A DNA stretch of 64,000 bases from Bordetella genomosp. 5 (GTDB lineage: Bacteria; Pseudomonadota; Gammaproteobacteria; Burkholderiales; Burkholderiaceae_B): the NCBI RefSeq assembly GCF_002261475.1, contig NZ_NEVN01000013.1, positions 62,001-126,000 on the forward strand, given 5' to 3'. Shown piece after piece: positions 25,082-29,303 of the stretch. The translations under genes were made by a program, and so were the position numbers. A model generated the notes under the pieces. That model was given only the letters and a program-made list of their open reading frames with translations. It was not told the DNA's origin and made no database searches. The first letter of the stretch is position 1, and every line of letters begins with the position of its first letter.

Positions 25082-25095
25082 TTGATGCAGGTCAA
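25082..25095 (+). promoter_or_regulatory. Anr/FNR box upstream of nrdD
   Basis: TTGAT-GCAG-GTCAA agrees at all ten defined positions with the Anr/FNR-type consensus TTGAT-N4-GTCAA. It is 88 bp upstream of the nrdD ATG, the right place for oxygen-responsive activation of an anaerobic reductase gene. Confidence 0.75.
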
Positions 25096-25133
25096 CCTGG
25101 CGCGTGCAACGGCGCGTCGGTAGGGGTTTTGAT

Positions 25134-25178
25134 CACCATATGTAGTGATAGAGTTCTTCGAATCAACTACATCTGGTG
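25134..25178. promoter_or_regulatory. Two NrdR-type boxes, 31 bp apart, upstream of nrdD
   Basis: CACCATATGTAGTG (25134-25147) matches the NrdR-box core CACWATATWTWGTG at 12 of 14 positions. AACTACATCTGGTG (25165-25178) matches at 10 of 14. Their starts are exactly 31 bp apart, the three-turn spacing seen for paired NrdR boxes. The second box ends 5 bp before the nrdD ATG, so bound repressor would also mask the translation start. The NrdR gene itself is not in the window. Confidence 0.65.
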
Positions 25179-25183
25179 GCGCA

Positions 25184-27175
25184 ATGAAGATCGAGCATAT
25201 CCGCAAGCGCGATGGCCGCAATGCCGCGTTCGAACCCGGCAAGATCGCCGCCGCCATTGCCGCCGCCGGCCGCAGCACCGATGAGTTCGATCAGGACACC
25301 GCGCAGCGACTGGCCGAGCACGTGGTGGCCCGGCTGGCGGACACGCCGCTGCCCGATGTCGAAACCATCCAGAATCACGTCGAAGAAGCACTCGTGCACG
25401 CGGGCCACTGGCGCACGGCGCGCGCCTACATCGTGTATCGCGAGCAACACGCGAGGCTGCGTTCGCTGCGGCACACGCTGGTCGATGTCGAGAGCGCGAT
25501 GGAGGAATATCTCGATCAGCGCGACTGGCGCGTCAACGCCAATGCCAACCAGGGCTACAGCCTGGGCGGTCTGATCCTCAATGTCGCGGGCAAGGTCACG
25601 GCCAACTACTGGCTCTCGAGCGTGTATGCCCCGGAAGCCGGCCAGGCGCATCGCGACGGCGATCTGCACATTCACGACCTCGACATGCTGAGCGGCTATT
25701 GCGCCGGCTGGTCGCTGCGTCAGCTGCTGGTCGAGGGCTTCAACGGCATACCGGGCAAGGTCGAGTCACGCCCCGCGCGCCATATGTCGGCCGCGATCGG
25801 GCAGATCGTGAATTTCCTGGGCACCCTGCAGAACGAATGGGCCGGCGCGCAGGCGTTCAGCTCCTTCGATACTTACATGGCCCCGTTCGTGCGACGCGAT
25901 GCGATGAGCTACGAGGCGGTGCGCCAGTGCATGCAGGAGCTCATCTACAACCTCAACGTGCCGAGCCGCTGGGGCACCCAGACGCCCTTCACCAACCTGA
26001 CCTTCGACTGGACCTGCCCGGCCGACCTGCGCGAGCAGATTCCGTACGTGGGCGGCGAGGAGATGCCGTTCGCCTACGGCGATCTGCAGGCCGAGATGGA
26101 CATGATCAATCGCGCCTACATCGAGGTCATGATGCAGGGCGACGCCAAGGGCCGCGTGTTCACCTTCCCGATCCCGACCTACAACATCACGCCGGATTTC
26201 GACTGGGACCATCCCAACACCACGCTGCTATTCGAAATGACGGCGCGCTACGGTCTGCCGTACTTCCAGAACTTCTTGAACTCGGATCTCGAGCCGCACA
26301 TGGTGCGCTCGATGTGCTGCCGTCTGCAGCTCGATCTGCGCGAGCTGCTCAAGCGCGGCAACGGCCTGTTCGGCTCGGCCGAGCAGACCGGCTCGGTCGG
26401 TGTGGTCACCATCAACTGCGCGCGGCTCGGCTATCTGCATCGTGGCGACGAACCCGGCCTGCTGGCGCGTCTCGACCACCTGATGATGCTGGGCCGCGAC
26501 GTGCTCGAGACCAAGCGCAAAGTCGTGCAGCGCTACATCGATCAGGGCTTGTATCCCTATACCCGCCGCTATCTCGGCACGCTGCGCAATCACTTCAGCA
26601 CCCTCGGCGTGAACGGCATCAACGAAATGGTGCGCAACTTCACGAGCGACGCCGACGACCTCACCACGCCCGCGGGTCACGCCCTCGCAGTACGGCTGCT
26701 CGACCACGTGCGCCTGCGCATGACCGAGTTCCAGGAAGAGACGGGGCATTTGTACAACCTCGAGGCCACGCCCGCCGAAGGCACGACCTACCGTTTCGCA
26801 CGCGAAGACCGCAAGCGCTATCCGGCCATCCTGCAGGCCGGCACGCCCGCGCAGCCCTACTACACCAACTCCAGCCAGCTTCCGGTCGGGCATACCGACG
26901 ATCCGTTCGAAGCGCTGGCGTTGCAGGAAGAGCTGCAAGGCAAGTACACCGGCGGCACGGTGCTGCACCTCTACATGAACGAAGCCGTTTCTTCCGCCGA
27001 CGCCTGCCGCGAGCTGGTGCGGCGGGCGCTCACCAACTTCCGCCTGCCCTACATCACCGTCACGCCGACCTTCTCGATCTGCCCGGTGCACGGCTATCTG
27101 CCGGGCCATCACGAGTTCTGCCCCAAGTGCGACGGCGAACTGCTGGCCCGCCAATCGGCGTGCTGCGCCGCCTGA
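25184..27175 (+). CDS. nrdD: Anaerobic (class III) ribonucleoside-triphosphate reductase, large chain lacking the glycyl-radical segment
   Basis: A 663-residue class III ribonucleotide reductase chain that reduces ribonucleotides to deoxyribonucleotides without oxygen. It has an N-terminal ATP-cone (IEHIRKRDGRNAAFEPGKI). The ten-strand barrel includes candidate active-site cysteines Cys173 (SGYCAGWSL) and Cys378/379 (SMCCRLQLDL). The C-terminal zinc-binding motif is SICPVHGYLPGHHEFCPKCDG. The chain ends 13 residues later (SACCAA). The RVxGY glycyl-radical loop, covalently present in ordinary NrdD, is absent and is supplied by the next gene. I chose the ATG at 25184, because the family N-terminus starts there. 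Upstream are Anr- and NrdR-type sites. Confidence 0.93.
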   Translation: MKIEHIRKRDGRNAAFEPGKIAAAIAAAGRSTDEFDQDTAQRLAEHVVARLADTPLPDVETIQNHVEEALVHAGHWRTARAYIVYREQHARLRSLRHTLVDVESAMEEYLDQRDWRVNANANQGYSLGGLILNVAGKVTANYWLSSVYAPEAGQAHRDGDLHIHDLDMLSGYCAGWSLRQLLVEGFNGIPGKVESRPARHMSAAIGQIVNFLGTLQNEWAGAQAFSSFDTYMAPFVRRDAMSYEAVRQCMQELIYNLNVPSRWGTQTPFTNLTFDWTCPADLREQIPYVGGEEMPFAYGDLQAEMDMINRAYIEVMMQGDAKGRVFTFPIPTYNITPDFDWDHPNTTLLFEMTARYGLPYFQNFLNSDLEPHMVRSMCCRLQLDLRELLKRGNGLFGSAEQTGSVGVVTINCARLGYLHRGDEPGLLARLDHLMMLGRDVLETKRKVVQRYIDQGLYPYTRRYLGTLRNHFSTLGVNGINEMVRNFTSDADDLTTPAGHALAVRLLDHVRLRMTEFQEETGHLYNLEATPAEGTTYRFAREDRKRYPAILQAGTPAQPYYTNSSQLPVGHTDDPFEALALQEELQGKYTGGTVLHLYMNEAVSSADACRELVRRALTNFRLPYITVTPTFSICPVHGYLPGHHEFCPKCDGELLARQSACCAA

Positions 27176-27228
27176 GCGACACCCCCGCGCGGGCAGGCCG
27201 CCCGCCTTCATCCGCAAGGAGTCATGAC

Positions 27229-27414
27229 ATGCAGACCCTCACCACCCTCATCCCGGCCGGCACCGGCAATGCGCCCGTGCTCGACGACAGCCAGCGCGTG
27301 CGCTGCGAAGTCTGGACCCGCGTCATGGGCTATCACCGCCCCGTCACGTCGTTCAACACCGGCAAGCAAGGCGAGTTCAATGAGCGCCGCTTCTTCACCG
27401 AACAGCGCGGCTGA
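27229..27414 (+). CDS. Stand-alone glycyl-radical domain protein (detached C-terminus of NrdD)
   Basis: A 61-residue protein in a different frame from nrdD, with its own AAGGAG (27216-27221) seven bases before the ATG. Residues 31-54 contain RVMGYHRPV and FNTGKQGEFNERR. This is the pattern surrounding the radical glycine at the C-terminus of class III reductases; the radical residue should be Gly34. It is separated from the nrdD stop by 53 bp and overlaps the activase gene by 35 bp, so all three are probably coexpressed. I infer that it docks into the NrdD barrel and is activated by NrdG, analogous in concept to the spare glycyl-radical cofactor protein GrcA/YfiD of pyruvate formate-lyase. 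The spacing and clean SD argue against a sequencing frameshift. Confidence 0.85.
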   Translation: MQTLTTLIPAGTGNAPVLDDSQRVRCEVWTRVMGYHRPVTSFNTGKQGEFNERRFFTEQRG

Positions 27415-28075
27415 TCCGCCCGCCGTGGGCGGGCTCACGCGCTTCTCCACGGTCGACTGGCCCGGCACGCTCGCGGCCGTCGTCTTCATTTCCGGCTGCC
27501 CCTGGCGCTGCCACTACTGCCACAACGCCGAGCTGCAACGGCGCGCCGCCCCCTATGCGTGGGACGACGTGAGGGCCTTTCTGGGCACGCGGCGCGGCCT
27601 GCTCGACGGGGTGGTGTTCAGCGGCGGCGAGCCGCTCTCCGAGCCCCGCCTGGGCGAGCTGGCGGACGAGACCCGCGCGCTGGGCTTTCGCCTGGGGCTG
27701 CACACGGCAGGCATCTACCCGCGCCGTTTCGCCGAACTGCTGCCGCGGCTCGACTGGGTCGGGTTCGACATCAAGGCCGACGACGCCGGATACGACAGCA
27801 TCACCGGCCGGCGCGGCTCCGCCCGGCCCGCGCGGGACTGCCTGGACCGGCTCCTCGCTTCCGACACGGCATTCGAATGCCGCATCACCTGGCATCCGGA
27901 CTGGCTGCCCGAAATCCGGCTGCTGGCCCTGGCTGCCTCGCTTTCGCAGCGTGGCGTGCGCCGGTTCGCCGTCCAGAACGCGCGCCGCGATGCCCAGCAT
28001 CGGCCCGTGTCGCGCCTGAGCAGCGCCACCGAAGCGGCCCTGCATCCATTGTTCGATTCTTTCAGCGTGCGATGA
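27380..28075 (+). CDS. nrdG: Anaerobic ribonucleotide reductase activating protein (radical SAM)
   Basis: A 231-residue radical-SAM activase. The [4Fe-4S]-SAM motif is CPWRCHYCHN (CxxxCxxC), followed by the glycine-rich SAM motif VVFSGGEPLSEP. The region GFDIKADDAGYDSITGR also fits NrdG/PflA-type activases. It generates the glycyl radical on the reductase. The start at 27380 (MSAASSPNS) gives a family-typical length and is preceded by a weak AAGGCGAG; longer in-frame readings at 27224 are possible but unsupported. The first 35 bp overlap the glycyl-radical gene in another frame, implying translational coupling with its substrate protein. Confidence 0.92.
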   Translation: MSAASSPNSAADPPAVGGLTRFSTVDWPGTLAAVVFISGCPWRCHYCHNAELQRRAAPYAWDDVRAFLGTRRGLLDGVVFSGGEPLSEPRLGELADETRALGFRLGLHTAGIYPRRFAELLPRLDWVGFDIKADDAGYDSITGRRGSARPARDCLDRLLASDTAFECRITWHPDWLPEIRLLALAASLSQRGVRRFAVQNARRDAQHRPVSRLSSATEAALHPLFDSFSVR

Positions 28076-28151: not shown

Positions 28152-29303
28152 ATGACTTGGTTGAAACCGCTCGTCCTTGCAGGCCGCGACCTGCTGCCCA
28201 TCGTCCAGGGAGGCATGGGGGTGGGCATCTCGGCGCATCGCCTCGCCGGCGCCGTGGCCGGCCAGAACGGCGTGGGCACGATCGCCAGCGTCGACCTGCG
28301 CCACCATCACCCCGATCTCGTCGAGCGCACCGAACGCAGCCGCGATCGCGAGCTCATCGACGCCGCCAACCGCGAAGCGCTCGACCGTGAGGTGCGCGCC
28401 GCGCTCGCGCTCGCGCAAGGCCGTGGACTGATCGCCGTGAACGTCATGAAAGCCGTGCGCGACCATCCCGGCCTGGTGCGCCAGGCCTGCGAAAGCGGCG
28501 CCCACGCGATCGTGATGGGCGCGGGCTTGCCGATGGACCTGCCCGAAATGACGGCCGACCACCCCGACGTGGCGCTCGTTCCGATCCTGTCCGAAGCGCG
28601 CGGGGTCTCGGCCGTGCTCAAAAAATGGATGAAGAAAGGCCGCATGGCAGCCGCCGTGGTGATCGAACATCCGGGCCACGCCGGCGGCCACCTGGGCGCG
28701 GCACGGATCGATGATCTGCATGACGAACGCTTCGATTTCGGCAAGGTGCTCGTCGGCTGCCGGCAGGTGTTCGCCGACCTGCAACTGGGCCGCGACGCGC
28801 CCAAGATCATCCTGGCCGGCGGCGTGGGCAGCCATGAGCAGGTGCGCCACTGGCTCGGCGAGGGCGCCGACGGCATTCAGGTCGGCACGGCATTCGCCGT
28901 CACCGAAGAGTGCGATGCGCACGAGAATTTCAAGCGCGTGCTGATCGACGCGGAGCCCGAGCAGCTGCTGGAGTTCACCAGCGTGGCCGGCCTGCCCGCG
29001 CGCGCCGTCGGCACACCGTGGCTCACCCGCTACCTCAAGCAGGAGGAAACGCTGCAGGCCAACACGCGCAACGATCCGCGCCGCTGCAGCCAGCGCATGG
29101 ACTGCCTGACGCAATGCGGGCTGCGCGACGGCATCGCGCGCTTCGGCCAGTTCTGCATCGACCTGAAGCTGGCCGCAGCCCTGCGCGGCGAGGTCAGCAA
29201 GGGGTTATTTTTCCGCGGCGCCTCGCGCCTGCCGTTCGGTAACGCGGTGCGCTCGGTACGCGAGCTGATGGACTATCTGCTGCACGGCCACGTGCCGGCC
29301 TGA
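28152..29303 (+). CDS. Nitronate monooxygenase / 2-nitropropane dioxygenase family flavoprotein
   Basis: A 383-residue FMN-dependent TIM-barrel protein. The start has QGGMGVGISAHRLAGAVA, which matches the family N-terminus. IEHPGHAGGHLGAARIDD carries the conserved His, and IILAGGVGSHEQVRHWLGEGADG with IQVGTAFAVTEEC forms the FMN-phosphate-binding part. These enzymes oxidise alkyl nitronates such as propionate-3-nitronate. The C-terminal region has an additional Cys-rich stretch (RRCSQRMDCLTQCGL). It follows nrdG after 76 bp on the same strand, so it may be cotranscribed with the anaerobic reductase genes. The reason for that linkage is unknown. Confidence 0.9.
   Translation: MTWLKPLVLAGRDLLPIVQGGMGVGISAHRLAGAVAGQNGVGTIASVDLRHHHPDLVERTERSRDRELIDAANREALDREVRAALALAQGRGLIAVNVMKAVRDHPGLVRQACESGAHAIVMGAGLPMDLPEMTADHPDVALVPILSEARGVSAVLKKWMKKGRMAAAVVIEHPGHAGGHLGAARIDDLHDERFDFGKVLVGCRQVFADLQLGRDAPKIILAGGVGSHEQVRHWLGEGADGIQVGTAFAVTEECDAHENFKRVLIDAEPEQLLEFTSVAGLPARAVGTPWLTRYLKQEETLQANTRNDPRRCSQRMDCLTQCGLRDGIARFGQFCIDLKLAAALRGEVSKGLFFRGASRLPFGNAVRSVRELMDYLLHGHVPA

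Follow-up and report, generated by a model that had tools for sequence, protein, structure and literature searches.

Whether a class III ribonucleotide reductase (RNR) can work when its large chain stops short of the loop that bears the radical glycine is the question raised by a locus in Bordetella genomosp. 5. The window, that is, the whole stretch of 64,000 nucleotides (nt) analysed here, belongs to contig C7 of a 5.2-Mb genome that is 99.99% complete. In it, nrdD ends just past its zinc motif, and a 61-codon gene encoding the missing loop lies between it and the activase gene nrdG. Our analysis indicates that the locus encodes a functional class III RNR made of two polypeptides (probability about 0.85), as a preliminary description of this DNA had proposed from the letters alone. 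The genes and motifs concerned are as follows.

25184..27175, forward strand: NrdD large chain, 663 amino acids (aa), with an ATP-cone (5-90), the catalytic NRDD domain and a zinc knuckle, then the stop
Window large chain, M377-C378-C379-R380: finger loop of NrdD, role assigned by homology (PMC9669993, from excerpts)
Window large chain, C633-H636-C646-C649: zinc knuckle of NrdD, role assigned by homology (PMC9669993, from excerpts)
27216..27228, forward strand: Shine-Dalgarno motif AAGGAG (27216-27221) and spacer of the small gene
27229..27414, forward strand: 61-aa glycyl-radical protein, with a variable N-terminus (residues 1-17) and the core CEVWTRVMG34YHRPV...FNTGKQGEFNER
27380..28075, forward strand: nrdG, radical SAM activase of the NrdG2 type, overlapping the small gene by 35 bp

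Division of the NRDD family between two genes

The two products tile the NRDD family of Pfam without overlap, since the large chain covers positions 2-528 of 562 (576 bits, cut-off 26.2), in addition to the ATP-cone, and the 61-mer matches positions 532-562 (32 bits, cut-off 26.2); PF13597 was the only family that the 61-mer matched. The RVxGY loop was not found in the large chain, so that the NRDD domain and the glycyl loop, expected on one chain in a class III enzyme, are here on two. The large chain stops 14 residues after its zinc knuckle CPVHGYLPGHHEFCPKC; a stop just past this motif had been correctly described, although the distance, given as 13 residues, is 14 when counted from CPKC. 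The finger loop SMCCR (376-380) is invariant across a 44-row alignment. The open reading frame (ORF) of the small gene begins 53 bp past the nrdD stop in a different frame, AAGGAG lies seven nt upstream of its ATG, and the loop glycine of its product is Gly34. Downstream, nrdG starts at 27380, inside the small gene that ends at 27414, and its product matches TIGR02495 (NrdG2) with 172 bits (cut-off 131). The lack of a loop in the large chain, the spacing, the change of frame, the ribosome-binding motif and the overlap all agree with the preliminary description. Annotation derived from RefSeq frequently labels the small gene 'nrdD'.

In solved NrdD structures a loop past the zinc knuckle bears the radical glycine and holds it close to the finger loop (PMC4493059 and PMC9669993, both cited here from excerpts); in Thermotoga maritima NrdD this glycine is Gly621 (PMC4493059). 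The window large chain aligns with the T. maritima protein up to residue 609, indicating that the split removes exactly the radical loop.

A whole-genome search for NRDD gave no second match beyond the window locus, and a second, intact NrdD acting with this locus was thus rejected. The search with PF02867, which covers class I and class II enzymes, gave one match, read as the class I NrdA, and the glycyl-radical domain PF01228 was not found in the genome. From these three results, the window locus appears to be the genome's only oxygen-independent reductase. This, together with the same split in relatives, supports the proposal that the activity comes from two polypeptides.

Conservation and history of the split

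A scan of genome contigs with the small-protein alignment gave at least 581 confirmed relatives, of which the best 80 were fetched. The patterns used here and in the viral scan ([PRA]CEVWTRV / MGYHRP or [EI][VI][WY][TS]RVMG) select the tip, as we call the small protein, of this clade, and fused types with RIVGY or RITGY would escape them. In 78 of the 80 loci, all from other genomes, the large chain has an end of its own and is followed by the small gene, so that the arrangement suspected in relatives is the rule in the clade; the two loci without a large chain belong to Andreprevotia lacus (L048) and a metagenome bin (L070). Across 104 split loci, which include near relatives that are not independent and three overlapping copies of the window locus, the distance from the large-chain stop to the small-gene start ranges from -41 to 549 bp, and the three relative frames occur 27, 29 and 48 times. 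In 101 of the 104, the chosen start is preceded by a Shine-Dalgarno match of 4-7 nt, the starts having been picked for the best such match. Among the 105 loci in which a large chain lies nearby, one, on an Acidiphilium plasmid, has a fused NrdD. The split NrdD of the window is real, and the co-occurrence of the two genes goes far beyond chance.

Genome samples gave the same picture. In the family sample the small protein was present in 47 of 151 genomes, with one small gene each (47/47), and NRDD was matched in 54: 47 split, six with a whole chain (G022, G084, G107, G125, G142 and G143) and one partial (G021). Comparison of the two lists showed that the 47 split genomes are those with the small protein; among them, NrdD is split in frame by TAA in G046 and lies in pieces on two contigs in G149. 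The six members of the window's genus in this sample all lacked an NRDD match. NRDD was matched in 95 of the 300 genomes of the order sample, where 71 large chains end at profile positions 525-540 and five carry one in-frame stop, the remainder being 17 with a whole chain only, one partial (G725) and one with a tip only (G687); these classes were counted from large-chain rows, and tips only among the matches listed. The phylum sample gave NRDD matches in 58 of 398 genomes, with a separate tip listed in 12 and a chain split in frame by stops in G361. Five genomes of the order survey (G569, G607, G647, G683 and G717) have both a split-type NrdD and a distant second, whole-chain NrdD.

The core of the small protein is conserved, with a ratio of non-synonymous to synonymous substitution rates (dN/dS) of about 0.29, computed from pairs that are not independent. 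That the locus is one NrdD broken by a sequencing error, or a decayed pseudogene, as two pieces 53 bp apart in different frames could suggest, is vanishingly improbable and was rejected, given the same split with its own start in 78 of 80 loci (some from closely related genomes) as well as in 47 of the 151 genomes of the family sample, the variable gaps in all three relative frames, the purifying selection on the core, and the relocated and extra copies described below.

Large chains from 57 chosen loci and the window were placed in a tree of 58 rows, from which intein-interrupted viral genes were left out. The split forms fall in one well-supported group of 45 rows (support 100/98), comprising 41 split rows, two fused rows, one split in frame (L119) and one whose tip is unknown (L120). 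Of the 13 rows outside it, 12 have a fused chain, and no tip was seen for the other (L125). The row closest to that of the window, at 94% identity, comes from Bordetella genomosp. 1. The fused chains, from Acidiphilium and Actinomyces, are nested within the split group, both with a linker of 11 residues, and a topology constrained to keep every split row in a single clade, apart from the fused ones, was rejected (approximately unbiased test, p-AU 0.012). One old fission followed by later re-fusion is the simplest reading of this topology; the deep placements are unsure because of long branches among viral rows.

Relocated, extra and viral copies of the tip gene

The tip gene is mobile, being found away from the large chain in bacteria, plasmids and viral contigs. 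In G462, a genome of the same order, and in G606, the small gene and nrdG form a pair at 9.5 kb and 2.4 kb from nrdD, respectively; in G690 the pair is at the start of one contig and nrdD at the end of another, which may reflect only an assembly break. In Andreprevotia, a large-small-nrdG locus is accompanied by a further small-nrdG pair, which lies apart from the large chain. Five genomes combine a single split-type large chain with extra small genes (G548, G772, G782 with two, G705 and G618), the last four being drafts with contamination estimates of up to 3%. In G772, G782 and G705, nrdG is beside the large chain, and it was not found in the 5 kb fetched around that of G618. Neither nrdG nor a large chain was found within about 2 kb of the extra copies in G772, G782 and G618, and the fetched piece around the extra copy of G705 (L164) gave partial matches to a large chain and an NrdG-like protein. 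The extra copy of G772 (L158:497-2992) is in a prophage lysis cassette, between the lysozyme gene and an Rz-like gene, with a holin gene and a tail-fibre assembly gene nearby. On two Allochromatium plasmids with the small gene, no large chain or activase is annotated in the fetched stretches, whose gene tables are incomplete, and tblastn with the large chain gave no match on these stretches.

The small-protein alignment detected 192 viral contigs, the best 80 of which were examined with large-chain queries trimmed of the glycyl loop. No large chain was found at 79 of the 80 tip loci, and none had nrdG, in the DNA examined. At least 4.4 kb is available on both sides of 31 of the stand-alone tips, and a search of the whole records (15-212 kb, possibly fragments) recovered only the tip in 31 of 31, while in the control record L169 both large chain and tip were recovered. 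The 79 tips fall into 49 clusters at under 90% core identity; their ORFs (L170-L248, on IMG/VR contigs) are mostly about 44-190 aa long, and by the same simple test as used for bacteria 20 of the 80 viral tips lack a Shine-Dalgarno match. Ten neighbouring proteins from six of the stand-alone loci were scanned; two matched families of unknown function and eight matched named phage families (portal, head maturation protease, neck, tail assembly, endolysin, integrase, clamp loader and helicase).

An earlier viral scan with large chains had given 26 loci, most of which, where the end is readable, are fused, and four of which (L121, L123, L133 and L140) are split. The order in L140 is nrdD-nrdG-small, and in L121 the small gene is about 2 kb on from the large chain, after a lysozyme gene. 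The archaeal virus ANMV-1 encodes a 144-aa protein, AJP62049 (L153:3180-3614), which ends in the loop and has extra CxxC pairs in front of the NRDD tip; no large chain was found in the 7 kb of ANMV-1 around it. The window 61-mer matches positions 115-154 of phrog_4132, a family of 179 aa and unknown function (E 4.7e-8), which is also matched by the small proteins of viral L121, L123 and L140 and of the G772 prophage. AJP62049 does not match phrog_4132 and has a weak match to phrog_487, annotated as NrdD. As a separate observation, a gut phage NrdD (L154:1000-3429) runs past its glycyl loop into a stretch that, by eye, resembles a domain of the thioredoxin type (CPNC) and could provide the enzyme with a reductant of its own.

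These distances bear on the explanation that a programmed frameshift or readthrough fuses both ORFs into one chain, which small gaps in many loci and the single chains of the rows outside the clade could favour. It is highly improbable and was rejected: the genes use three relative frames, the gaps reach 549 bp, the small gene is 2.4 kb, 9.5 kb and about 2 kb away in G606, G462 and L121, and in L140 it lies beyond nrdG.

Proposed function and relation to known systems

In the two-chain enzyme that we propose, the large chain would supply the allosteric cone, the substrate barrel, the finger-loop cysteines and the zinc knuckle, and the 61-residue protein would supply the loop with the radical glycine. 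Gly34 would lose a hydrogen to NrdG, and the small protein would insert into the barrel, the radical then moving to Cys378/379 and on to the substrate. Complex formation and radical loading by NrdG are predicted steps.

Several points weigh against this reading. The N-terminal dN/dS of the small protein is about 1.2, indicating that its first residues are barely constrained, in line with the poor conservation of residues 1-17, and CEVWTRVMGYHRP is invariant in part because the search patterns required it. Viral large chains L125 and L143 show no tip in the DNA examined; that of L125 (L125:2501-4153) ends at the knuckle, and no glycyl loop was found in the next 2.5 kb. Conversely, metagenome bin G549 and genome G687 have a tip but no large chain, perhaps through incompleteness. 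An AlphaFold model of an artificial read-through join of NrdD and the small protein gave a mean predicted local distance difference test score (pLDDT) of 75.2 and a predicted template modelling score (pTM) of 0.72, but with pLDDT below 50 at the glycyl loop (711-742) and the finger loop (379-399), leaving Gly34 unplaced with respect to Cys378/379, which speaks neither for nor against contact between them. A sequence search of the Protein Data Bank with the 61-mer gave only a chance match. As a side observation, Cys26 (in CEVW, just before the loop) is present in 79/79 cellular and 78/79 viral rows, a conservation that the search pattern partly imposes.

Alternatively, a glycine within the large chain, such as that of HGY in the zinc knuckle, could bear the radical, with the small protein as an accessory. 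Siedow is said to have described the NrdD of Cupriavidus necator H16 in 1999 as a 76.2-kDa protein and to have pointed to glycine 650. By hand count, residue 650 of the 676-aa C. necator large chain is the glycine of CPTHGY in the zinc knuckle, not that of RVMGY. A knuckle radical is nevertheless very unlikely, as the radical loop of solved NrdD follows the knuckle (excerpts of PMC4493059) and is found here only in the small protein, and as in the fused chains of Acidiphilium and Actinomyces the same RVMGY loop comes after the knuckle.

A better alternative is a two-chain enzyme whose small chain is permanent and never exchanged, the split being neutral. The single small gene of every split genome in the family sample (47/47) and a tree that fits at least one re-fusion are consistent with it, and extra small copies beside a single large chain in five genomes, as well as stand-alone viral and plasmid copies, argue against it; we consider it possible but the less probable course. 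In the two-chain enzyme with an exchangeable tip, the oxidised small protein would probably be replaced without remaking the 663-aa enzyme, because the radical glycine that oxygen cuts sits on a cheap separate chain. The spare-part idea of the preliminary description gains support from tip genes that are additional to the locus or stand alone, in bacteria and on viral contigs, while exchange after oxygen damage is a step that we infer; the small protein as a spare part is plausible, at roughly even odds. The wider proposal, that the tip is a freely exchangeable radical part across the clade and that many phages carry it alone to (re-)arm the host NrdD during infection, in the way that T4 uses Y06I for pyruvate formate-lyase, could equally well hold or fail on the present comparisons.

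Upstream of nrdD, three putative regulatory sites were scored against consensus sequences.

25082..25095, forward strand: FNR-like site TTGATGCAGGTCAA, 9/10 consensus positions
25133..25148, forward strand: NrdR-like box 1, 12/16
25164..25179, forward strand: NrdR-like box 2, 10/16 (under the 11 required in relatives), 31 bp from box 1

Paired NrdR-like boxes (at least 11/16) occur upstream in 46 of 72 relatives, compared with 1 of 1440 shuffled regions that kept single-base make-up only, and FNR-like sites in 55 of the 72, a count made without shuffled control. The upstream sites would fit use in anaerobic nitrate respiration. The neighbourhood, named by eye, includes narH/J/I-like ORFs and a sensor-regulator pair upstream, and a nitronate-monooxygenase-like ORF after nrdG (window 28152-29303), with a similar ORF after nrdG in L053.

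The same division can be traced in described organisms. On plasmid pHG1 of C. necator H16 nrdD is split (L023:1274-4350), and the annotation lists a 676-aa 'ribonucleoside triphosphate reductase', a 66-aa 'nrdD' and an activase. The genome paper of C. metallidurans gives NrdDG as Rmet_5137 and Rmet_5139, and the skipped tag is expected to be the small gene. In one open-access full-text library we found no paper that calls the small gene a separate radical subunit; an earlier description may be present in Wei 2014 (on N. bacilliformis) or in Siedow 1999 (on A. eutrophus). Older work on denitrifiers such as C. necator H16, with its split NrdD, may need re-reading. According to excerpts of Andorfer et al. 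2021, pyruvate formate-lyase is the only enzyme with validated spare parts, and other glycyl radical enzymes may have them too (PMC8683613). A natural two-piece NrdD makes spare parts beyond pyruvate formate-lyase directly testable, and the small peptide offers a system for studying radical loading by NrdG; an exchangeable tip would, if true, be the first spare part known for an RNR. The stand-alone viral tips are a new lead.

Compared with the single-chain class III RNR (NrdD; PF13597, TIGR02487; T. maritima, E. coli, T4), the locus shares the cone, catalytic domain, finger-loop cysteines, knuckle and loop, a following nrdG, and NrdR/FNR-like sites upstream, but the loop is a separate gene product and the large chain ends at the knuckle. 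The fragmentation of phage nrdD by introns and inteins (PMC3653736, from excerpts) is a different matter. In the split class II NrdJa/NrdJb of Pseudomonas aeruginosa a C-terminal RNR domain is also on a separate gene, although that domain is cysteine-rich and not a radical carrier (PMC5704485, from excerpts). For phrog_4132, without assigned function so far, we propose that of a radical tip. The closest likeness, in architecture only, is to GrcA/YfiD of E. coli and to Y06I from phage T4, which act as spare parts of pyruvate formate-lyase: small stand-alone proteins of bacteria and phages in which a variable N-terminus precedes a copy of the C-terminal glycyl loop (PMC8683613, again from excerpts). 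The variable start and conserved core of the small protein resemble the layout of YfiD, whose first half is disordered (PMC8683613), and genes free of their partner, also in phages, occur among relatives of the 61-mer, the window copy itself standing beside nrdD. The 61-mer, however, is the end of NRDD and not PF01228, and would serve NrdD; and whereas GrcA/YfiD is a back-up, the small protein is the clade's only source of the glycine.

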